This document shows, one piece after another, positions 4,494 to 20,942 of a stretch of 21,802 nucleotides of DNA. The DNA lies in IMG/VR virus record IMGVR_UViG_3300032223_001318, positions 1 through 21,802 of that record. One strand, 5' to 3'. Under the pieces are notes generated by a model. It saw nothing but the letters and a program-made list of their open reading frames with translations. It was not told the DNA's origin and ran no database searches. Origin of the DNA: a virus. A program made the position numbers and the translations under genes. The stretch's first letter is position 1. Every line of letters begins with the position of its first letter.

Positions 4494-5228
4494 ATGTACG
4501 AAAATAAAGAAAAATTATCAACTGAACAAATTAGAAATAAATTAATTGGAAAATTAGTAGAAAGTGGATGGGCTTCATTCCTTAGAGCTCATTTAAGAAG
4601 TAGTGAGTTTGAATCTATAATTGATTTCTTAATTAATGAGAATCAAGAAGGAAGAAGATTTACTCCTGCCTTGAAACAGGTATTTAGGGCATTTGAAGAA
4701 TGTCCAGTAGACAAAGTAAAGGTTATAATGATTGGGCAAGACCCATACCCACAACCTTTAGTAGCTGATGGTGTAGCATTTAGTTGCAGTAACACTAATA
4801 AAGCAGAAGCAAGTCTAAGATATATTCTTAGAGCTGTAGAAAACACTGTGGCTCTAGAAGATAGAGATGCTGTAGATGAAATAGAGAAATTAAATTTAGT
4901 TAGATGGTCTCATCAAGGTGTGCTTATGCTTAACTCTGCTCTAACTACTGAGGTAGGTAAAGTAGGTAAACATGTAGAACAGTGGAAACCATTTATGGAG
5001 TATCTAATAGATATGTTAAACTTTCAACAAGCAGGATTAATATTTGTATTGATGGGTAAACAAGCACAACAATATGAAGCACTCATTGGTGATCATCATA
5101 CTGTGATAAAATCCACCCATCCTGCATATGCTGCCTATATGAAAGTATTTAACTGGGATTGTAATGATATATTTAATAAAATAAACTTGCAATTGGTTGA
5201 GTATAAGAAGGAAAAAATCTTATGGTAA
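4494..5228 (+). CDS. ung: Uracil-DNA glycosylase, family 1
   Basis: This 244-residue protein has the family 1 UDG signature: the water-activating loop G-Q-D-P-Y-P at 81-86 with catalytic Asp83, then a G-V-A-F-S strand, a L-M-L-N-S-A-L-T segment (uracil-recognition Asn), and the C-terminal loop with His209 in H-P-A-Y-A-A, the counterpart of H-P-S-P. Two variations from the bacterial consensus are visible: Pro instead of His after D-P-Y, and A-Y-A-A instead of S-P-L-S-A. The enzyme removes uracil from DNA to start base excision repair. In a phage it protects AT-rich DNA against deamination or misincorporation. It is divergent from the minus-strand island across an 18-base A/T-only gap (leader TTTAATTT-ATG). 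Confidence 0.95.
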   Translation: MYENKEKLSTEQIRNKLIGKLVESGWASFLRAHLRSSEFESIIDFLINENQEGRRFTPALKQVFRAFEECPVDKVKVIMIGQDPYPQPLVADGVAFSCSNTNKAEASLRYILRAVENTVALEDRDAVDEIEKLNLVRWSHQGVLMLNSALTTEVGKVGKHVEQWKPFMEYLIDMLNFQQAGLIFVLMGKQAQQYEALIGDHHTVIKSTHPAYAAYMKVFNWDCNDIFNKINLQLVEYKKEKILW

Positions 5229-5265: not shown

Positions 5266-6198
5266 ATGACAAAAACACTTAAAGAGTCAGGATTTATACA
5301 TATATCTGAAGCATTTGACCAAGCTATTGTATATGCTCAAAAGAGACAGACAGGAGAGATTAAAAGCATCAAGACTCCCTGGCCTAAGTTCAATGAGGTA
5401 TCAATGGATGGTTTAGAATGGAATAGTCTCACAGTGATTGCAGGCAGGCCTGGTAGTGGAAAAACCTTAATTGGTAGTATGATATCAAGAGAGGCATTTA
5501 AACTCAATCCTGACCAAGATTTCTGTGTATTAGACTTTCAATTTGAGATGCTTGCTAGAAATATAGCATTAAGAGAAATCAGTGGTAACACAGGTATTAA
5601 TGTTAGAAAGCTATCAAGTGTTGGTTTAAAGCTTACAGATGATGATTTAAATGCTGCAATCAAGTATTGTAATGAAAATAAATACAAAGAAATTTATACC
5701 TATGAGAGACCCCTGACAGTAGAATCAATGAGAGAAAAGATTTTTGAGTTTTATAAACTTAAAAAGAAACCTATGCTAATCACAATTGATCACAGTTTAC
5801 TCTTAAAGAAGAGTGCTAGTGAGAAAGATAGGATAGAAACATTATACAATTTAGGCAATATGCTTGCCGAAACAAGAAGACAACTACCTGTATGTTTTAT
5901 AGTATTAAGTCAATTAAACAGAGAAATAGAAAGTACAGATCGTTTAGCAAAGAATAGTATTGGAAACTTTGTAAAGGACAGTGATGTATTTGGTGCTGAT
6001 GCATTACTTCAGTTCACTGATATTTTAGTGGGTATTAATAGACCTGCAAAATATGGGTTAACTACTTATGGCCCTGATAGAATACCTGTGGATATGGACA
6101 CCTTAGCAGTTCATTTTCTTAAGGTAAGAAATGGTGAGCCAAAGCTTACATTATTCAAAGCAGACTTTGCTAAAAGTAAAATTCATCAAATCATTTAA
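5266..6198 (+). CDS. DnaB-type replicative helicase (C-terminal RecA-like domain only)
   Basis: This 310-residue protein matches the ATPase domain of DnaB helicases: Walker A G-R-P-G-S-G-K-T at 60-67, an F-Q-F-E-M block with E94 (the F-S-L-E-M equivalent), Walker B L-I-T-I-D with Asp175, S-Q-L-N-R-E at 215-220 (motif H3), and a C-terminal beta region V-H-F-L-K-V-R-N-G. The usual N-terminal primase-binding domain of cellular DnaB (about 150 residues) is missing; only about 45 residues precede the core. It would be the hexameric 5'-3' fork helicase, working with the separate primase encoded at 8278. The leader GCAAA-ATG follows an A/T-rich palindromic gap. The next gene starts 2 bases after the stop. 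Confidence 0.93.
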   Translation: MTKTLKESGFIHISEAFDQAIVYAQKRQTGEIKSIKTPWPKFNEVSMDGLEWNSLTVIAGRPGSGKTLIGSMISREAFKLNPDQDFCVLDFQFEMLARNIALREISGNTGINVRKLSSVGLKLTDDDLNAAIKYCNENKYKEIYTYERPLTVESMREKIFEFYKLKKKPMLITIDHSLLLKKSASEKDRIETLYNLGNMLAETRRQLPVCFIVLSQLNREIESTDRLAKNSIGNFVKDSDVFGADALLQFTDILVGINRPAKYGLTTYGPDRIPVDMDTLAVHFLKVRNGEPKLTLFKADFAKSKIHQII

Positions 6199-6200
6199 TT

Positions 6201-6770
6201 ATGGAATTCAAAAGCGAAAAAAAGAAAGGACCTTGGCATTCAGCAAAAGAGAAAGTTCAAAGTGCAGTAATTGAAAAAGCAAAGACTATGGGATATAGTC
6301 ATATTACTCCTACTTTGATATCACCAAAAAGTATTAGAGACAATCCTAATCATGTATTGTTAATGGGTTATGAATTTGCTGGTAAGCATGTATTCATTCT
6401 CTTTGACAAAGATTGGAATGACTTAGTAGACAAAGACAATAATCTAACTACTGAATTAGTTTTATACACAATGCCAACTTGTAAAAATTATGATGAAGTA
6501 TATACTTCTATGGCATTTCATGAGGAAGGTCCTTATGTTGTAAATGTAGATGAACTAAAACCTCTTACAGCAAAACCAGGATTTGCTAAAGAGCCTCAGT
6601 TAGATTTTGAATTTTCTGATTCATTTCCTACAAGAGAAGATCAAGATGAACATTTAAGCACAATGACTATTAGAGATTTATTATCTATTATCCAATGTGT
6701 TCCTGTGAGTACAAAAGAATGGTTAAACCAAGAAATCAAAAAGATAAATGTCATCAGAACTAAAAATTGA
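6201..6770 (+). CDS. Hypothetical replication-operon protein
   Basis: This 189-residue protein has a basic N-terminus (residues 3-10 mostly Lys/Glu), a mixed alpha/beta region around 25-115 with several beta-strand-like segments (H-V-L-L-M-G-Y-E-F, H-V-F-I-L-F), and an acidic C-terminal part ending in a helix. I do not recognise the family and see no catalytic motif. It sits between the replicative helicase (2-base gap, TTTAATT-ATG leader) and the Sak4-like ATPase (23-base overlap), so a role as helicase loader or accessory factor is possible but purely positional inference. Confidence 0.85.
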   Translation: MEFKSEKKKGPWHSAKEKVQSAVIEKAKTMGYSHITPTLISPKSIRDNPNHVLLMGYEFAGKHVFILFDKDWNDLVDKDNNLTTELVLYTMPTCKNYDEVYTSMAFHEEGPYVVNVDELKPLTAKPGFAKEPQLDFEFSDSFPTREDQDEHLSTMTIRDLLSIIQCVPVSTKEWLNQEIKKINVIRTKN

Positions 6771-7503
6771 ATTGCCTTTAACACCTGTCAAGGCATTAAC
6801 AAAATCACCAAAAGAACTAATCATCTTTAGTAAGCCAAAGGTTGGTAAAACAACACTACTTGCAGGATTAGAAAATTGTTTGATCTTAGATTTTGAAGAT
6901 GGCTCTGATTATGTAGAGGCATTAAAGATTAAGATTAAAACACTAGATGAATTAAAGCAAGTAGGTAAAGCAATCAAGGAAGCAGGTAATCCTTATAAGT
7001 ATGTTGCTATTGATACTGTAACTGCACTAGAAGAATTCTGTATAGGATATGCAGAAGAGTTATACTCTAAATCTTCTATGGGTAAGAATTGGTTTACAGA
7101 AGGTAAGCCTAAATATGGTACAATATTGAACATGCCTCAAGGTGCTGGCTATCAGTGGTTAAGACAAGCTTATAATAAGATTTTAGATTTTATTAGAGGG
7201 TTTGCACCAAGAATTATTTTAGTGGGCCATGTTAAAGATACTATCTTAGAAAAAGCAGGGAATGAATTTAATTCCTTAGATTTGGATCTTACAGGTAAAA
7301 TTAAAAGAATCACAGCATCTAATTCTGATGCTATTGGATATCTTTACAGAAAAGGAAAACAAAATATCATTAGCTTTAAAACTAATGATGAAATATCTTG
7401 TGGTGCTAGACCAGAGCACTTAAGAAACAAAGAGATAGTGTTATCTGAACTATCAGAAGAAGATACACTGACAACTAATTGGAATAAAATTTATATTGAT
7501 TAA
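6748..7503 (+). CDS. RecA-like ATPase, Sak4/AAA_24 type
   Basis: This 251-residue single RecA-fold ATPase has a degenerate Walker A S-K-P-K-V-G-K-T at 28-35 (Ser in place of the first Gly), an acidic L-D-F-E-D-G block near 47-52, Walker B V-A-I-D-T with Asp89, and H-V-K-D (about 161-164) after a beta strand. This order is that of the AAA_24 or Sak4 group of phage recombinases, short RecA relatives that act with a phage single-strand-binding protein in homologous recombination and strand annealing. The immediate downstream gene encodes an SSB-like protein, which is the typical Sak4 neighbourhood. It overlaps the preceding gene by 23 bases. Confidence 0.85.
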   Translation: MSSELKIELPLTPVKALTKSPKELIIFSKPKVGKTTLLAGLENCLILDFEDGSDYVEALKIKIKTLDELKQVGKAIKEAGNPYKYVAIDTVTALEEFCIGYAEELYSKSSMGKNWFTEGKPKYGTILNMPQGAGYQWLRQAYNKILDFIRGFAPRIILVGHVKDTILEKAGNEFNSLDLDLTGKIKRITASNSDAIGYLYRKGKQNIISFKTNDEISCGARPEHLRNKEIVLSELSEEDTLTTNWNKIYID

Positions 7504-8277: not shown

Positions 8278-9225
8278 ATGTTTTCAAGTAGAGAAGCAGT
8301 ATTCAGCATAGATGATGTTCCTGCTGAATGGATATTTGAACATTATTTAGGATTAACTGAAAAGTTACATGGACAAAGTGTAAAGATTAAAAGTTTATTT
8401 AATCCAAGAGACAATGATCCAAGTATGTATATTTATCTAAATCCTTCTGCACAAGAGTATAGATTTAAATGTTTTAGTACAGGCACTTATGGTTCAGCTA
8501 TTAACTTAATAATGATGACAAAATCATTAAGTTTTATAGAAGCTGCTAATTTAGTTATAGGTGATTACAAAGAATATTTAAAAGGCAGCACTTATACTAA
8601 AACTAAAATGACAGAAGCTACTAAGTGGAAATTGTATGATCTTAAATATAGGTCATGGAATACAGATGATAAAGAGTATTGGGCTCCATATAATGTTGGT
8701 AGCAAATTATTAGATCTTTACAATGTAAGACCTGTTGAAGTATTTACAATGACCAAAGAGGGTGAAAGTTTTAGTAGGGCAGGTAGAAGAGTGTATGCTT
8801 ATACCAAAGCAGATGGTGAAGTATATAAAATATATATGCCTGAAAACAAAGACAAAAAGTTTATGAATTTTTCTAAATACATTCAAGGTTGGGAACAACT
8901 AGAAGGTAACTCTAGATTATTTATATGTAGTTCACTTAAAGATATTATGGCTATGAAAAGCTTAGGTATCAAAGGTGATTACATTGCACCTAGTAGTGAG
9001 AATAGTAGGATAAAACCTATACTAGATTGGATTCAAGAAGAGTATTCCGAGAAGTATGTTATCTTTGACAATGATGAAGCTGGTAAAAGAATGATGGAGA
9101 AATACAAAGAAGAGTATGATCTCCCTTATCTTATAGTAGATTTATCAAAAGACATTAGTGATTCTGTAAAGGATCATGGTGCTAAGAAAGTCAAAGAATA
9201 CTTTAAGAAATTAATTAAACTATGA
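8278..9225 (+). CDS. DnaG-type primase with TOPRIM domain
   Basis: This 315-residue protein has an N-terminal region resembling a primase zinc-binding domain (S-L-F-N-P-R-D-N-D-P-S-M near 39-50 and F-K-C-F near 63-66) but with a single Cys, so zinc binding looks lost. It then has a linker and a C-terminal TOPRIM fold from about 212: I-C-S-S-L-K-D with Asp222, S-E-N (240-242), and V-I-F-D-N-D-E-A-G-K with Asp264 and Asp266 as the metal-binding D-x-D. The conserved catalytic Glu of E-G-x-x-D appears as Ser218, a variant I recall in phage TOPRIM primases. It would make RNA primers for the polymerase at 11625, working with the helicase. The leader is TTTAAATT-ATG. Confidence 0.88.
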   Translation: MFSSREAVFSIDDVPAEWIFEHYLGLTEKLHGQSVKIKSLFNPRDNDPSMYIYLNPSAQEYRFKCFSTGTYGSAINLIMMTKSLSFIEAANLVIGDYKEYLKGSTYTKTKMTEATKWKLYDLKYRSWNTDDKEYWAPYNVGSKLLDLYNVRPVEVFTMTKEGESFSRAGRRVYAYTKADGEVYKIYMPENKDKKFMNFSKYIQGWEQLEGNSRLFICSSLKDIMAMKSLGIKGDYIAPSSENSRIKPILDWIQEEYSEKYVIFDNDEAGKRMMEKYKEEYDLPYLIVDLSKDISDSVKDHGAKKVKEYFKKLIKL

Positions 9226-11288: not shown

Positions 11289-11628
11289 TTGTCCTTACAA
11301 TGAGGCAATCTATGATCCTGAACAAAAAATTATGGCATTAATCTCTAAAGAATGCAAGGAAACATTTCAAATGGTTCCTAAGTTTGATGACAAAGGAGAT
11401 GTAATGCAAGCTAAAAGAACCAGAGAAAATGGTAAAAACTATGCTGAAGAAAGAAGAGCATTAGATACATGGTATGAATACTATGTAGAAGAAGCTGATG
11501 ACATCAAAGCATTTATTGAATGGTTTGTTGGAGCAGACAGTGTAGCTCGTGCTGCTGAATTTATTGATGCTCCAAAAGTATCTAGTATTACTAATCCAAC
11601 TATGTTCGAAGGTATCACAAGTTTATGA
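11212..11628 (+). CDS. Conserved phage hypothetical protein upstream of DNA polymerase
   Basis: Up to 138 residues, with a start that is uncertain. ATGs at 11212, 11224 and 11227 all lie inside the previous gene. The likely folded core begins around R-L-I-P-I-S-L-D-C-P-Y-N-E-A (residues 19-32), which itself lies partly in the overlap, so a start upstream of 11288 is required. I recall similar short proteins starting near a D-C-P-x-x-E-A-I-Y-D-P motif in Bacteroidota phages, without known function. The C-terminal half is acidic and helical (L-D-T-W-Y-E-Y-Y-V-E-E-A-D-D). It overlaps the polymerase gene by ATGA, so expression is probably coupled with the polymerase. Confidence 0.8.
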   Translation: MQNSMMLIKSTWNQAKTFRLIPISLDCPYNEAIYDPEQKIMALISKECKETFQMVPKFDDKGDVMQAKRTRENGKNYAEERRALDTWYEYYVEEADDIKAFIEWFVGADSVARAAEFIDAPKVSSITNPTMFEGITSL

Positions 11629-13553
11629 TGAAAATCAAAAACTGGGTATATGACTTAGAAACGCTAATGAATTGCTTCATTGGCGTTTTTGAGTCTTATA
11701 CCACAAATGACAGACATATATTTGTAGTTCACTCTACAAGAAATGATTTACCAAAATTATTGGACTTCTTAAGTCATTTGAAGAAAAATAAATGTTGGTT
11801 ATTTGGTTACAACAATCTTGGGTTTGACTCTCAGATAATAGAATATATATTAAAGAACAAAGAAAGATTATTATCAAGTACTGCTGATGAAGTAGCTCAT
11901 GATATTTATCAATATTCACAAGAAGTTATCAAGAAATCAAACACAGGAGATTATGCTGATTATCCTGAATGGAAATTAACTATACCACAACTAGATATCT
12001 TCAAACTTAATCATTGGGATAATGATGCTAAGAGAAGTAGTTTGAAGTGGATTCAATATTCTATGGATTGGTATAATGTGGAGGAGATGCCTCACCCTCA
12101 TTATAAACCAGTAACTAGTAGTGTTGATATGGTCAACATTATAAAGTATTGTATTAATGATGTGGCTAGTACTAAAGCTATATTCACTATGCCTGATATG
12201 AGAGAGCAGATTAAACTAAGAGCTACTCTAAGTAAGGAGTATGGTTTGAAGTTGCATAGTGCTAGTGAACCAAGAATCAGCAAAGAAATGTTTATTCACT
12301 TCTTATCTAAAAAATTAGGTATAGATAGAAAAGAAATCAAAGATCTAAGAACTAGAAGAGATAGAGTAAGCATTAAAAGTTTAATACTACCTTATGTAAA
12401 GTTTGAGACCCCAGAATTTTGCAATATGTTAGCTTGGTTTAAAAAGCTTGATGTAAAGATTCTAGAAGGTAAGATGGAAGGTCCTAAGCATAGTATGAAG
12501 TATAAAGGTGTTTACACTGATTATGGCTTAGGTGGTTTGCATGGTTGTGCTAATCCAGGTATTTATGAATCTTCAGATACACATGTAATAGTAACTGCAG
12601 ATGTGGCTAGTTTCTATCCTAATCTAGCTATTAGAAATAGATGGAGTCCTGAGCATATTCCAAAAGAACCATTCTGTGATTTATATGAGTGGTTTTACAA
12701 AGCTAGAAAGAAGTATGATAAGAAGAATCCTTTGAATTATTTATTCAAGATTATTCTAAATTCAACTTATGGCTTGAGTAAAAGTATTCACAGCTTTCTG
12801 TATGATCCAGAACTTACTTTCAGGATTACTGTAAATGGTCAATTACTTCTAAGTATGTTGTATGAGAAGATATCCTTAGCAATACCTGAAGGAATAGCTA
12901 TTATGCAAAATACAGATGGTTTAGAGTTTCTAATTCCAAGAGATAAGATGGAAGTATTTACTGATGTGTGTGCAGAATGGGAAAAGATGACCAAGCTCAC
13001 ATTAGAAGTGGATACTTACAAAAGAATGATTATCAGGGATGTAAATAATTATATTGCAGTATATAGTGATATAACTAAAAAGCCTAAGTGTAAAGGTGCA
13101 TTTGAATGGGAGAATCTAGCATTACATAAGAACAAGAGCTTCCTTGTAGTATCAAAAGCAATCTATCATTATTTTGTACATGGCCTAAGCCCAGAAGAAT
13201 ATTTAGAAACTAACAAAAATATCTTTGATTATTGTGGTGGTATAAAGATTAGAGGTGAATGGTTCTTTGTACAGAAATATTTTAAGAATGGTATATACAA
13301 AGAGGATATACTTCAAAAGTTAGTCAGATATTATGTATCTACCAATGGTGTAAAACTTAGCAAAAGACACCCTGATGGTAGAGAAATACAAATTGAATCT
13401 GGCTTGTGGGTGCAAAAAGTATTTAATAAATTTGTCGACCTTCCATTTGAGAAGTATGAAACCAATAAAAAGTATTATCTAGATAAGATACATCAAGAGA
13501 TAGAAAACATAGAAGGAAGTAGAGCAAAGAAAATGCAGTTGAATTTATTTTGA
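11625..13553 (+). CDS. Family B DNA polymerase with proofreading exonuclease
   Basis: This 642-residue polymerase has a 3'-5' exonuclease domain with Exo I D10-L-E12-T, Exo II N-N-L-G-F-D68, and Exo III Y175-x3-D179. The polymerase domain has a Y-G-L-G-G motif near 300-304, motif A D326-V-A-S-F-Y-P, motif B K375-x3-N-S-x-Y-G383 and motif C N429-T-D431-G. The first Asp of the usual D-T-D is Asn, but the second, metal-binding Asp is kept. All catalytic residues for both activities seem present. The last five residues are Q-L-N-L-F (638-642), matching the sliding-clamp-binding motif Q-L-x-L-F seen at the end of E. coli Pol II. This would be the main phage replicase. The start may be either of two adjacent ATGs. 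Confidence 0.95.
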   Translation: MMKIKNWVYDLETLMNCFIGVFESYTTNDRHIFVVHSTRNDLPKLLDFLSHLKKNKCWLFGYNNLGFDSQIIEYILKNKERLLSSTADEVAHDIYQYSQEVIKKSNTGDYADYPEWKLTIPQLDIFKLNHWDNDAKRSSLKWIQYSMDWYNVEEMPHPHYKPVTSSVDMVNIIKYCINDVASTKAIFTMPDMREQIKLRATLSKEYGLKLHSASEPRISKEMFIHFLSKKLGIDRKEIKDLRTRRDRVSIKSLILPYVKFETPEFCNMLAWFKKLDVKILEGKMEGPKHSMKYKGVYTDYGLGGLHGCANPGIYESSDTHVIVTADVASFYPNLAIRNRWSPEHIPKEPFCDLYEWFYKARKKYDKKNPLNYLFKIILNSTYGLSKSIHSFLYDPELTFRITVNGQLLLSMLYEKISLAIPEGIAIMQNTDGLEFLIPRDKMEVFTDVCAEWEKMTKLTLEVDTYKRMIIRDVNNYIAVYSDITKKPKCKGAFEWENLALHKNKSFLVVSKAIYHYFVHGLSPEEYLETNKNIFDYCGGIKIRGEWFFVQKYFKNGIYKEDILQKLVRYYVSTNGVKLSKRHPDGREIQIESGLWVQKVFNKFVDLPFEKYETNKKYYLDKIHQEIENIEGSRAKKMQLNLF

Positions 13554-13554
13554 T

Positions 13555-13770
13555 ATGGCAAAAGACAAAGTATTGTTGCACGTGATGCAACAGATTATAT
13601 CTGATGTAGAGCATGGTGATGTTGAAGCAGTTGAAGAATTGCTTGAACTACTCTACACAGAAGACACAAAGCAATATTTCATTGGGTTCCTCTCTGAGGA
13701 ACTCATTGAAGAATTAGGATATGATTTAGATGAATTATATAGAGAAAGCAATGACAAATACGATGAATGA
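13555..13770 (+). CDS. Small acidic helical hypothetical protein
   Basis: This 71-residue, highly acidic, almost all-helical protein (D-V-E-H-G-D-V-E-A-V-E-E-L-L-E-L-L, then F-L-S-E-E-L-I-E-E-L) begins one base after the polymerase stop and overlaps the start of the MazG-like gene by 8 bases. I do not recognise a family. The tight packing implies co-translation with the polymerase, and an acidic helical protein could be a polymerase accessory, a DNA mimic or an inhibitor of a host factor, none of which can be shown from sequence. Confidence 0.8.
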   Translation: MAKDKVLLHVMQQIISDVEHGDVEAVEELLELLYTEDTKQYFIGFLSEELIEELGYDLDELYRESNDKYDE

Positions 13771-14464: not shown

Positions 14465-15907
14465 TTATGGAACAATTGGAGGGACATATCTAACATTAGC
14501 TACATTAGGAATAGTAGCACCACTTGCAAGATTCCAAAGGCTATTAGCAGGATTCACTACATTAGCAGCAGTAGTAATACCTGCACCAAATCTTACATTG
14601 TATAAATCAAAAGTAGGTGACCCTACACTAATGTTTCCTAATTTACTTCCTGCAGGCCAAGTACCAACATTTGCAATATAAATATCAGGTTGATTTCCTG
14701 AAGTTGATAATGCATTTACAATAGGATTAGCTTGTTTATTAACTAAACCATCTACAACAAATCTACCACCATCTGTAAAGTATATTTCAAATGAAATACA
14801 AGATTGCCAATTGTAGTTACTTGTTGCAGCACCTGGTCCAAGTAAAATATCAAAATAACTATTTGTTACTTTAGCTGTTCTTACAAGATTAGCATTATTT
14901 GAAACAATTCTAATACCATAAGAAGGATTACCTGTACCTGTTAATGAAAACTGATCAATTGTAACATTTTCAGAATCTGAAATATACATTGCTTGTCCTT
15001 GACTCAATGAATCTACAACTTTAATGTTTTCAAAAGATAAATTTCTACATTGAGAATTTGCAGGAATAGCACCAGTCCATGAACCACTTACAGCATAAAT
15101 TGTTGTTTGAGCTATGTTAGCTGAACTAATGTTTCTAATGTGACTATTTACTATATTTTCAAATTGTAATCCAAATGCAAAATTTGTCAAGTTGATATTT
15201 TCAATTACACAATTTGTTGCAGCTCCTAATCTTATAAATGAACCATTGCTTGTCCAGTTAGTACCACCTACACCATTTACATTAAAGTTTTTAATTATAA
15301 ATGAGTTGTTGATGTATGTAATAGATGCTGCAGATTGACTAGTTGGAATTCTTTCAAAGAAATTAAAAGCATTTACACCAAATTTAACAAGATTACATCC
15401 ATTACCATCAATGATAAATTCTGTTACTGCAGAAGAACTTGTTGATAAGTTTACAGGTAATTGACAAGCTTTACTAACCCAATACTTAGTTGGATCAAAC
15501 ATCAAACTTTGATATCCTGCATTGCTACCCATCATTTTAAATGCATATCTAATTGCAGTACTATCGTAACAGTCATTAGTTGTAGTAAATCCTGTACCAT
15601 ATCTAAGATCTAAAGTAGCTTGAGAAACACCTATGCTACCAAATGTCAAAGGAGTTGTTGCAGTGTTCTGACAACCAAACCAACCTACATTTACAGGACC
15701 ATCATAAACTCTTTCCCAATATCCTAAAGTAGATGCTCTAGGTTTGATTCTCATACCAGCAATATTAGTAATACCAGTGTTAGTTACATTGCCTACCCAA
15801 CGAAATGTACCACCACCTGTGGTAGCATTGTTGTCAAATTGACCCACAGTGTGTGTGTCATATGTTGTGGAATTTTCTAAATCCCAGAAATATTTATAAA
15901 ATGCCAT
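14465..15907 (-). CDS. Beta-helix tail spike/fibre protein, second copy
   Basis: This 480-residue protein has an N-terminal region (1-110) with F-R-W-V-G and G-Y-W-E-R-V-Y-D-G-P-V-N-V-G-W-F-G blocks, typical of the head of pectate-lyase-type tail spikes. From about residue 163 there is a long right-handed beta-helix: I-D-G-N-G, then many repeated N/S/G-rich rungs (I-I-K-N-F-N-V-N-G, V-I-E-N-I-N-L, H-I-R-N-I). It likely binds or degrades host surface polysaccharide, but no catalytic residues can be assigned. Residues 165-350 align with the neighbouring 352-residue protein. The leader is TTAATT-ATG, two bases after the upstream stop. It is the last gene of the minus-strand operon. Confidence 0.85.
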   Translation of the reverse strand: MAFYKYFWDLENSTTYDTHTVGQFDNNATTGGGTFRWVGNVTNTGITNIAGMRIKPRASTLGYWERVYDGPVNVGWFGCQNTATTPLTFGSIGVSQATLDLRYGTGFTTTNDCYDSTAIRYAFKMMGSNAGYQSLMFDPTKYWVSKACQLPVNLSTSSSAVTEFIIDGNGCNLVKFGVNAFNFFERIPTSQSAASITYINNSFIIKNFNVNGVGGTNWTSNGSFIRLGAATNCVIENINLTNFAFGLQFENIVNSHIRNISSANIAQTTIYAVSGSWTGAIPANSQCRNLSFENIKVVDSLSQGQAMYISDSENVTIDQFSLTGTGNPSYGIRIVSNNANLVRTAKVTNSYFDILLGPGAATSNYNWQSCISFEIYFTDGGRFVVDGLVNKQANPIVNALSTSGNQPDIYIANVGTWPAGSKLGNISVGSPTFDLYNVRFGAGITTAANVVNPANSLWNLASGATIPNVANVRYVPPIVP

Positions 15908-15909
15908 AA

Positions 15910-16968
15910 TTAAGATATTGTTTTAGAGTTAACTTTCATTGAATTAGTAAGTATCTGTTTAGATTGATTGAAGAATTCAGAGTATCTATAGTAAGGAATT
16001 GTTCCACCAACCCAACGAGTAGTATTAAAGATAGTATCACCTTGCCATACTTCATCAAAGCTCCATACAACAGCAGTACCAATAGTTTTAAATGTAGTAC
16101 CACTTGTTAACCAAGGAACATTCTCAATGTATAAGTGAGGATATCCTGAAGCTGCTTCTGCATCTACAAGAACTTGATCATATTGTGAATAGATACCATT
16201 TAATCTAGCATATCCACCAGATAATCTAAGTTTGATACCAGCAACACTAGCTGCTGATTCTAAGTGAGAACCACGCATTACAAAGTCTTTTACTACACCA
16301 GAACCTTGACTATCAAAGTAAACATGGTAACTAGGATTACCACCTTCAGAAATACACTGATCCATAACCATACCTGAGGCAGCATAGATTGCAAAGGCAG
16401 CATAAGCTCCTGCAGCATTAAATACTCTACACTGTTCAAATCTACTATGATTAGATTGTGAATTAGAATTAGAAGCAGTTGTCCAATTACCACGGTCTGC
16501 AGTAAATGCAACACCAGTAACATTGATAGATTGACAATTAACTACTCTTGTCATTAGACAGAATCTTAAATGTAATCCTTCAGTTAATGCTTGGAATTTA
16601 CAATTTTCAATTACAGCTCCATAAGTAGCAGCTAAATCTAATCCAATACCAGAGCCTCTACCATCAAAGCAGATATTTCTAAATACAAATGCATGACTTT
16701 GCATAGTATTTAAAGCTTCTGCTTGATTAGCAGGAACACGTCTCATTAAGTGAGTTAATGTACTTCCAATATTAGGTGCAAGTGTAGCACCATTTCCCTC
16801 AATAACTAGTTGTTTGCTACGACAATAAAGTGTCTTAGGTAACTCTAAGGGAGCTGTAAGTTCAATAATATCATCCTCAATAGAAATGCAACTAATAGGT
16901 TGAGTAGCAGCATTAGTTAATGCAGCTTGAAGCTGAGCTTCAGTTGTTACGATTACTTTATTTAACAT
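15910..16968 (-). CDS. Beta-helix tail spike/fibre protein, first copy
   Basis: This 352-residue protein starts with a short alpha/beta region (T-T-E-A-Q-L-Q-A-A-L near 8-17) as in pectate-lyase-superfamily proteins. It then has I-E-G-N-G near 56-60 and repeated beta-helix rungs (F-V-F-R-N-I-C-F-D-G, V-I-E-N-C-K-F, V-V-N-C-Q-S). The C-terminal part beyond about 280 is not repetitive and ends with N-S-M-K-V. Several blocks match the adjacent 480-residue protein (R-x-P-x-x-Q-x-A, I-E-N, W-T-x-A, G-N-P-S-Y), so the two are probably duplicated host-recognition proteins. No N-terminal tail-attachment domain is obvious, in contrast to the second copy. It lies directly after the spanin candidate. 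Confidence 0.83.
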   Translation of the reverse strand: MLNKVIVTTEAQLQAALTNAATQPISCISIEDDIIELTAPLELPKTLYCRSKQLVIEGNGATLAPNIGSTLTHLMRRVPANQAEALNTMQSHAFVFRNICFDGRGSGIGLDLAATYGAVIENCKFQALTEGLHLRFCLMTRVVNCQSINVTGVAFTADRGNWTTASNSNSQSNHSRFEQCRVFNAAGAYAAFAIYAASGMVMDQCISEGGNPSYHVYFDSQGSGVVKDFVMRGSHLESAASVAGIKLRLSGGYARLNGIYSQYDQVLVDAEAASGYPHLYIENVPWLTSGTTFKTIGTAVVWSFDEVWQGDTIFNTTRWVGGTIPYYRYSEFFNQSKQILTNSMKVNSKTIS

Positions 16969-19595: not shown

Positions 19596-19820
19596 TTAGC
19601 AACCTCTTTTCATTCCACCTTTCTTCATGCCACCCATCTTCATTTTAGATGGAGTAGCTCCAGAAAGTTTTGAACTTTTAGTATGACCAACACCTTTGCT
19701 TCCTGCTACTTTTTGAACAGTAGCTTTAGTGCTTTTAGTTGGACCTACACCATTGCTACCAGCTACTTTTTGAGCTGATACAGTAGCATTTGGATTTTTC
19801 ATTTTGCCTAGTGTTCCCAT
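19596..19820 (-). CDS. Basic KKGG mini-protein with internal repeat
   Basis: This 74-residue, Lys/Gly/Ser/Met-rich protein of low complexity contains two near-identical units (residues 12-32 and 33-51, core Q-K-V-A-G-S-x-G-V-G-x-T-K-S), then K-M-G-G-M-K-K-G-G-M-K-R-G-C at the end, including a C-terminal Cys. It has no hydrophobic segments. It is strongly positively charged and could bind nucleic acid or coat the virion interior, but the function is unknown. It is the last gene of the minus-strand array, with leader GTAATT-ATG, just before the terminator. Confidence 0.75.
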   Translation of the reverse strand: MGTLGKMKNPNATVSAQKVAGSNGVGPTKSTKATVQKVAGSKGVGHTKSSKLSGATPSKMKMGGMKKGGMKRGC

Positions 19821-19822
19821 AA

Positions 19823-20077
19823 TTACATTCCTTTTTTAGTGCCACCTTTTTTCATGTAACCCATTTTAGTAGCAATAGCTTTATCAGATTTCATATCTTT
19901 AGCTGATCCTTCTTTACCATGTGCTCTAGACTTATCTGCTTTCATATCTGCTGCTGACTTTTCATAAGCCTTCATACCACCTTTTTTCATTTTAGTAGTA
20001 CCACCTTTTTTAAGGTAAGAGTTTGCAGGACCTGCAGTTTTCATACCTGCTGTACCTTTTGTCATTGTAGTTGCCAT
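19823..20077 (-). CDS. Basic KKGG mini-protein
   Basis: This 84-residue, very Lys/Met/Gly/Thr/Ala-rich protein carries three KKGG units (Y-L-K-K-G-G at 21-26, M-K-K-G-G-M at 30-35, Y-M-K-K-G-G-T near 74-80). The middle has alternating A-D-M-K-A-D-K and K-D-M-K-S-D-K blocks that look like an internal repeat. It is disordered in appearance and strongly basic. It follows the previous array gene by 5 bases, a 2-base gap separates it from the next one, and its leader is A/T-rich. Confidence 0.75.
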   Translation of the reverse strand: MATTMTKGTAGMKTAGPANSYLKKGGTTKMKKGGMKAYEKSAADMKADKSRAHGKEGSAKDMKSDKAIATKMGYMKKGGTKKGM

Positions 20078-20082
20078 AATAT

Positions 20083-20481
20083 TTATTTTTTAGATTTGAT
20101 TACTTTTTTACTTCTAGTTGAACCACCTTTTTTATAATTAGCATCCATATAAGATGCTCTATTAGTAGGATAACTTTGAGATCTTCTTTTTACATCAATA
20201 TCTCCATCACCTAAGTATTTAGTTTTAGTTCTATCTTTATTAATGATATAACCATCTTCTGTAGTTCTACTTAATTCTTTCTTTTTCTGAAGTTCTCCAT
20301 CCTTAGAAACTGTTTTGACTTTATTCTTTGTAATAGTTCCATCATCATTTTGAGTACGTGATACTGTTTTATCATAAGTATTACCAAAAAGCTTAAAACT
20401 TCTATCAGATGTAGCAGTTCCACCTGGTTCATACTTCTTTATTTTACGACCTGTAGCTTTGGTCATTCTCTTAGTAGCCAT
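20083..20481 (-). CDS. Basic, repetitive mini-protein ending in a KKGG motif
   Basis: With the ATG at 20481 this is a 132-residue protein starting M-A-T-K-R-M-T-K-A. It has Y-E-P-G-G near 17-21 and a central beta-like repetitive part in which Thr/Lys/Asp-rich strands recur (T-V-S-R-T-Q-N-D-D-G-T-I, T-V-S-K-D-G-E-L, S-R-T-T-E-D-G-Y-I-I). The end is Y-K-K-G-G-S-T-R-S-K-K. The recurring D-G turns suggest a small beta-hairpin repeat, possibly a structural protein. The frame is open to 20517 but the upstream start would overlap the previous gene and lacks the shared leader AGAAATAAT-ATG, so I choose 20481. Confidence 0.75.
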   Translation of the reverse strand: MATKRMTKATGRKIKKYEPGGTATSDRSFKLFGNTYDKTVSRTQNDDGTITKNKVKTVSKDGELQKKKELSRTTEDGYIINKDRTKTKYLGDGDIDVKRRSQSYPTNRASYMDANYKKGGSTRSKKVIKSKK

Positions 20482-20482
20482 A

Positions 20483-20740
20483 TTATTTCTTTCTAGAGTT
20501 TTTCTTAGCACCTGCAATTCTATCTGCAGCTGTAATCTTATTGTAAGGAGGAGCTAGTGCAGCAAACTTTTTAGCTTTACTAGTCATGCCACCTTTTTTA
20601 TACATAGCATAGTTAGACATTGTATCTCCTGAAATAGCTTCAGGTTTTTTAGGATTTCTTGTATTCATTACTGCAGCTTTGTTTTTACCTACAGATTTAG
20701 CAGTGGATTTAACCTTTGCTTTTCCTTTGTTCTCTGACAT
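20483..20740 (-). CDS. Basic KKGG mini-protein
   Basis: This 85-residue basic protein has an N-terminal Lys/Ala/Ser-rich region and M-Y-K-K-G-G-M-T-S near 46-54. The end reads L-A-P-P-Y-N-K-I-T-A-A-D-R-I-A-G-A-K-K, a motif I recall from other small phage proteins, which may be a conserved folded or peptide-binding segment. No membrane helix is present. The leader AAGAAATAAT-ATG is nearly identical with that of the following gene, suggesting similar expression levels. One base separates the two genes. Confidence 0.75.
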   Translation of the reverse strand: MSENKGKAKVKSTAKSVGKNKAAVMNTRNPKKPEAISGDTMSNYAMYKKGGMTSKAKKFAALAPPYNKITAADRIAGAKKNSRKK

Positions 20741-20741
20741 A

Positions 20742-20942
20742 TTATTTCTTTTTAATAGTTTTATTAGTAGATCCTCCCATAACTAATTTGTTAAGATCTA
20801 TAGTTGCTTTTTTAAGAGCTGCCATTCTAGTTTTATCTTGTTGAATTTCATTAGCTCTTTGAAGAGTACGCATGTCATCTTCTGTTCTCCATCGCATCTC
20901 TTCTTTAGACATTTTAACTGGTGTTGGTTTTGTTCTTGCCAT
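20742..20942 (-). CDS. Small basic helical protein of the array
   Basis: This 66-residue protein differs from its neighbours by being mostly helical and charged (E-E-M-R-W-R-T-E-D-D-M-R-T-L-Q-R-A-N-E), with M-G-G-S-T-N-K and Lys-rich end (K-T-I-K-K-K). It lacks a full KKGG but keeps the G-G-S and Lys pattern. No known domain is recognised. It lies one base from the next array gene and 4 bases from the upstream one. Confidence 0.72.
   Translation of the reverse strand: MARTKPTPVKMSKEEMRWRTEDDMRTLQRANEIQQDKTRMAALKKATIDLNKLVMGGSTNKTIKKK

Follow-up and report, generated by a model that had tools for sequence, protein, structure and literature searches.

The window analysed here is a 21.8-kb stretch of viral DNA that carries a set of replication and recombination genes on its plus strand. 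These include a uracil-DNA glycosylase (UDG; 4494-5228), a DnaB-like replicative helicase (5266-6198) whose best phage matches come mostly from crAss-like phages, an AAA_24 ATPase (6748-7503), for which the crAss-like phage cr125_1 has a Sak4-like annealing protein in the matching place, a DnaG-type primase with weakly matching zinc ribbon and Toprim domains (8278-9225), and a family B DNA polymerase (PolB) of the crAss-like type (11625-13553). A UDG gene adjoins the PolB gene directly in crAssphage LMMB and cr8_1. Further neighbors in the window are RusA, a PD-(D/E)XK-like nuclease and a DEAD-type helicase. On the minus strand, positions 14465-16968 specify two large proteins with a repetitive, β-helix-like look, one of which (480 aa) has no PHROG match; these are possibly tail spikes. 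Also on the minus strand, positions 19596-20942 hold a succession of short neighboring ORFs whose products are rich in Lys, Met and Gly and contain KKGGM/MKMGG repeats.

A crAss-like family B polymerase

The 642-aa polymerase ORF is matched by the PHROG_1252 DNA polymerase profile with an E-value of 7.8e-141 over residues 2-636; the Pfam PF00136 profile and sequence searches of the PDB gave no match to it. An AlphaFold model built from 51 window-related sequences has a mean pLDDT of 92.2, and in Foldseek searches of the PDB it retrieves family B polymerases with E-values down to 5e-14, E. coli Pol II included; the model also matches phage polymerases, crAss-like ones among them. The 3'-5' exonuclease residues are D10, E12, D68, Y175 and D179, and those of the palm are D326 (motif A), K375/N379/G383 (motif B) and the N429-T-D-G of motif C. 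D68, Y175, D179, D326, K375, N379 and D431 are invariant in 62 sequences, with D10 and E12 retained in at least 90%. By its catalytic residues and its fold, this protein is a family B DNA polymerase, and it is presumably the main replicase of the phage. Its motif C (12909-12920) reads N-T-D-G in place of DTD, the first Asp being replaced, and this form is invariant in 62 relatives; it agrees with a statement in the PolB diversity paper (PMC7544198), as excerpted, that the crAss-like PolBs differ in motif C. The protein does not qualify as an orthologue of E. coli Pol II (group G1), given the missing PF00136 and PDB sequence matches and an N-terminus that begins directly in the exonuclease domain.

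The polymerase belongs to the same sequence and fold family as the crAss-like group of PolBs (PHROG_1252; Kazlauskas et al. 2020, PMC7544198), and the contigs of its relatives are crAss-like; the closest kin of this phage appear to be crAss-like phages of Bacteroidota. The window itself has no crAss-type terminase, portal or capsid gene; evidence of this kind comes from a relative with a 125-kb contig (L110), whose PolB is approximately 67% identical. The large terminase subunit (TerL) of this contig matches, among the groups listed, only Crassvirales and Bacteroidota phages, namely those of Flavobacterium, Cellulophaga, Bacteroides and Azobacteroides, and the contig also matches PHROGs for portal and capsid and encodes virion-type proteins of very large size. 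The Terminase_6N profile found nothing in the relatives. The Bacteroidota host that had been guessed from the window alone thus gains support from the terminase matches of L110 among the groups listed, and by way of this relative such a host is likely. Since the window has neither enrichment of the Bacteroidota promoter motif nor any tRNA, these two features give no indication of the host. The metagenome-assembled genome (MAG) bins provided only three related phage contigs, in Sphingomonadaceae, Spirochaetia and Campylobacteraceae MAGs, and were not taken as host evidence.

The C-terminal pentapeptide and its conservation

The polymerase translation ends in ...GSRAKKMQLNLF, followed by a TGA stop codon (13551-13553). 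The preliminary description had reported a terminal QLNLF at 13536-13550, preceded by KKM, and both the coordinates and the residues are exact on the translation. The pentapeptide (Q638-F642) is a predicted binding motif for the host sliding β-clamp, DnaN: it fits the β-clamp consensus, as had been proposed, and is identical to the motif of E. coli UmuC, residues 357-QLNLF-361 of which have been crystallized on the β-clamp (PMC3716654). The same source describes the pentapeptide consensus, the QLGLF used by Pol II, and motifs six residues long in Pol III and Pol IV; bacterial PolBs of groups G1 and G3 likewise carry clamp motifs (PMC12926913). The motif is joined to the last conserved helix by a variable, low-confidence linker (13503-13535), and over the last 12 residues the pLDDT falls to 63 and then 47, against the model mean of 92. 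The low pLDDT of the model in this tail points to a flexible, accessible position for the motif.

The brevity of the motif and the start of the next ORF at 13555, one base past the polymerase stop codon, invite the thought that it is a product of chance, a functionless inheritance, or the outcome of a DNA-level constraint near the next gene start. Given the amino-acid composition of the window, the probability of QLxLF at one given C-terminus is 1e-5 (4e-5 in relaxed form), and over 21 genes it is 2e-4 to 9e-4 (relaxed). An ending of the form Q[LIVM]x[LM]F is found in 0 of the 1336 other distinct ORFs of at least 80 aa that the window and the first 80 of its relatives contain. The terminal QLNLF is well beyond chance.

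A broader comparison drew on at least 80 IMG/VR relatives with 49-81% identity, and on further ones recovered by profile searches. Among all distinct closed C-termini, 99 have the pentapeptide clamp motif at most three residues from the end and 13 have a hexapeptide, QLxLxL, which is an accepted form of the β-clamp motif; 23 are left unmatched by the strict pattern. The latter comprise distant cultured relatives, near-motif ends (QLTFF, QFQLF, QLTFDLW, QLSLFNFDEF, QTSLFDFVA and QITLFDFVA), a broken piece (L189) and one clade member, L005. The pentapeptides of the relatives are mostly QLSLF, QLKLF, QLTLF or QLELF, and the hexapeptide takes the form QLxLEL. In an unrooted tree of 83 representatives with long branches, the window's clade has 65 diverse members, 64 of which have a clamp-type motif at the C-terminus, either Q[L/I/T/M/F]x[L/F]F or one of the QLxLxL type, so that the random absence among relatives that the preliminary description had named as telling against clamp binding is not what the C-termini display. 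The sole exception, L005, has a frameshift or deletion near the end of its PolB gene (11700-11880), with QLRLF and a stop codon present in the +1 frame. Within the motif, Q1 is kept in 64/64, L4 in 63/64 and F5 in 55/64 (the remainder being hexapeptides), set against an upstream entropy of 2.5-3.8 bits, a contrast that is somewhat flattered by the anchoring of the comparison on the motif by pattern. The linker before the motif varies in sequence and ranges from 6 to 18 residues. Exchange of the pentapeptide for the hexapeptide is seen at two places in the tree, one comprising L009/L134/L146/L149/L152/L156/L159 and the other L080/L099.

The QLSLF tails are encoded by 24 different 15-mers among 46 sequences, and the DNA downstream of them differs; hence, selection acts on the peptide. 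These synonymous encodings with their varied downstream DNA, the retention of the motif across sequences that are only about 50% identical, and its rarity at background C-termini make chance, functionless inheritance or a DNA-level constraint a very improbable source of the tail.

Clamps and clamp motifs among the relatives

The window had been described as free of clamp and clamp-loader genes, and the TIGR00663, phrog_947 and clamp-loader phrog_168 profiles are all without match in this 21.8-kb fragment. Beyond the window, TIGR00663 recovers no DnaN in 40 records, contigs of up to 136 kb included. The phrog_947 profile detects bacterial, archaeal and phage clamps and scores positive in 13 or more of the 14 cellular genomes used as controls; among 25 records with the motif, the contigs of which may be incomplete, it reveals no clamp. 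A phage clamp elsewhere in the genome, which the preliminary description had put forward as evidence against its reading, was thus not found in the motif-bearing relatives, contigs of 88-136 kb among them. The same profile identifies full clamps in the motif-less phages Kopi, RcSpartan and Halfdan, and matches Vibrio 1.032 and PEi21 weakly and in part; no clamp of the Kopi type turned up in the clamp searches of the relatives. Some motif-less cultured relatives are likewise without a detectable clamp, and for this reason motif and clamp do not replace one another strictly. The weak AAA+ matches of clamp-loader profiles in relatives were judged to be generic AAA+ ATPases, and the one examined (L209) fits a CbbQ-type family far better.

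These searches bear on the alternative that the partner of the tail is a clamp or other processivity factor that the phage itself encodes and that is too divergent for the profiles. Pfam fails to detect even the Kopi clamp, the contigs may be incomplete, and many of their genes are of unknown function, all of which leaves some room for such a protein. Nevertheless, the broad reach of phrog_947 did not extend to a clamp in any of the 25 motif-bearing records, the T4 gp45 profile produced only one sub-threshold match (E 0.008), and the tail peptide matches the consensus of the bacterial host, making a divergent phage clamp an unlikely partner.

Outside the window's clade, Suoliviridae PolBs also have the motif at or near their ends: RQLELF in cr125_1, QQLELF in cr130_1, KQLNLFNFDEY/F in cr1_1 and cr50_1, and QLSLWDFS in cr10_1. 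The Cellulophaga phi14:2 group is without a terminal motif and has a conserved Q[LMG][ND]IFD in an insertion loop approximately 60 residues from the end in 8/8 loci (L211-L218), which is probably a relocated clamp motif; in phi14:2 PolB itself the predicted internal motif is QLNIF. No Gln-containing motif occurs near the end of the Intestiviridae PolBs of LMMB and cr8_1, and a scan of Intestiviridae PolBs for relatives found none. Two Intestiviridae PolBs, L093 and L098, end near Y-N-x-[IL]-F (YNPIFNEDDFG and YNDLFDNEEEQ), possibly a degenerate tail motif lacking Gln. The terminal motif is absent from cultured proteobacterial relatives with 32-36% identity. Because the tree lacks a root and includes long branches, we make no claim as to the number of independent origins of the motif.

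Predicted use of the host clamp

Taken with the absence of a detectable clamp, the conservation of the motif leads us to propose, with a probability of roughly 85%, that the replicase is tethered through its QLNLF tail to the host DnaN for processivity, both the binding and its purpose being predicted from sequence comparison. The suggestion in the preliminary description that the replicase may use the host DnaN is strengthened by these comparative tests. The phage would supply its own proofreading family B replicase, apparently without a sliding clamp of its own; the host clamp loader would load the DnaN ring; and the last five residues of the short flexible tail would dock in the peptide pocket of that ring, thereby tethering the replicase to DNA and rendering it processive. 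Clamp-binding peptides all compete for one pocket, as established for the E. coli polymerases, and the motif might accordingly bind DnaN chiefly to seize clamps from Pol III and repair enzymes as a means of host takeover. Yet the motif is part of a proofreading replicase that the phage itself encodes, much as in Pol II, and a dedicated inhibitor would need no such fusion; we regard seizure as the main role as distinctly improbable.

The tethering that we favor has partial parallels in known systems. E. coli Pol II, with its terminal QLGLF, shares with the phage enzyme the family B fold, the 3'-5' exonuclease and a terminal β-clamp pentapeptide. However, Pol II serves the cell as an accessory polymerase and has an N-terminal domain; at 642 aa, the phage polymerase is the shorter of the two, only 13% identical over the structural match and distinguished by its NTDG motif C. 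UmuC (Pol V) has the identical pentapeptide, QLNLF, but is a Y-family polymerase with an internal motif; that of the phage is terminal, as in Pol II. Among phages, T4 gp43 gains processivity from gp45, T4 encoding both its own clamp and its own loader, while T7 gp5 gains it from host thioredoxin. In both, a phage polymerase is made processive by a partner, and T7 borrows a host protein for this purpose; in place of thioredoxin or a clamp of its own, the phage described here is predicted to use the host clamp. A mobile-element counterpart is provided by transposases with a terminal QLxLF that docks on the host clamp (PMC4549789), like the predicted phage tail, although there the motif affects transposition rather than, as proposed here, the processivity of a replicase.

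Among the papers compared, none describes a host-clamp motif on a crAss-like PolB. In its excerpted text, Kazlauskas et al. 2020 (PMC7544198) makes no mention of such a motif for the crAss-like PolB group and takes up clamps in connection with T4-like phages and archaeal viruses alone, and the word "clamp" is absent from a paper on polymerase swapping in crAss-like phages and from two large papers on these phages. Motifs of this kind are known from bacterial polymerases; what appears to be new is a phage-encoded family B replicase that is predicted to use the host β-clamp.

We further consider it somewhat more probable than its converse that crAss-like phages with PolB replicate in general by borrowing the host β-clamp, a strategy in which the motif has been kept or re-evolved as a terminal pentapeptide, a terminal hexapeptide or an internal loop in place of a phage clamp. 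Phages of the crAss-like type are some of the most abundant, and a 2023 review describes their DNA as replicated via an unknown mechanism (PMC10136315). If true, the tether to the host clamp would explain how genomes of approximately 100 kb are copied without a phage clamp, would link DnaN to the replication and the host range of these phages, and would bear on their swapping of PolA and PolB. Were the strategy indeed general, it would supply a missing step in the copying of crAss-like phage DNA.
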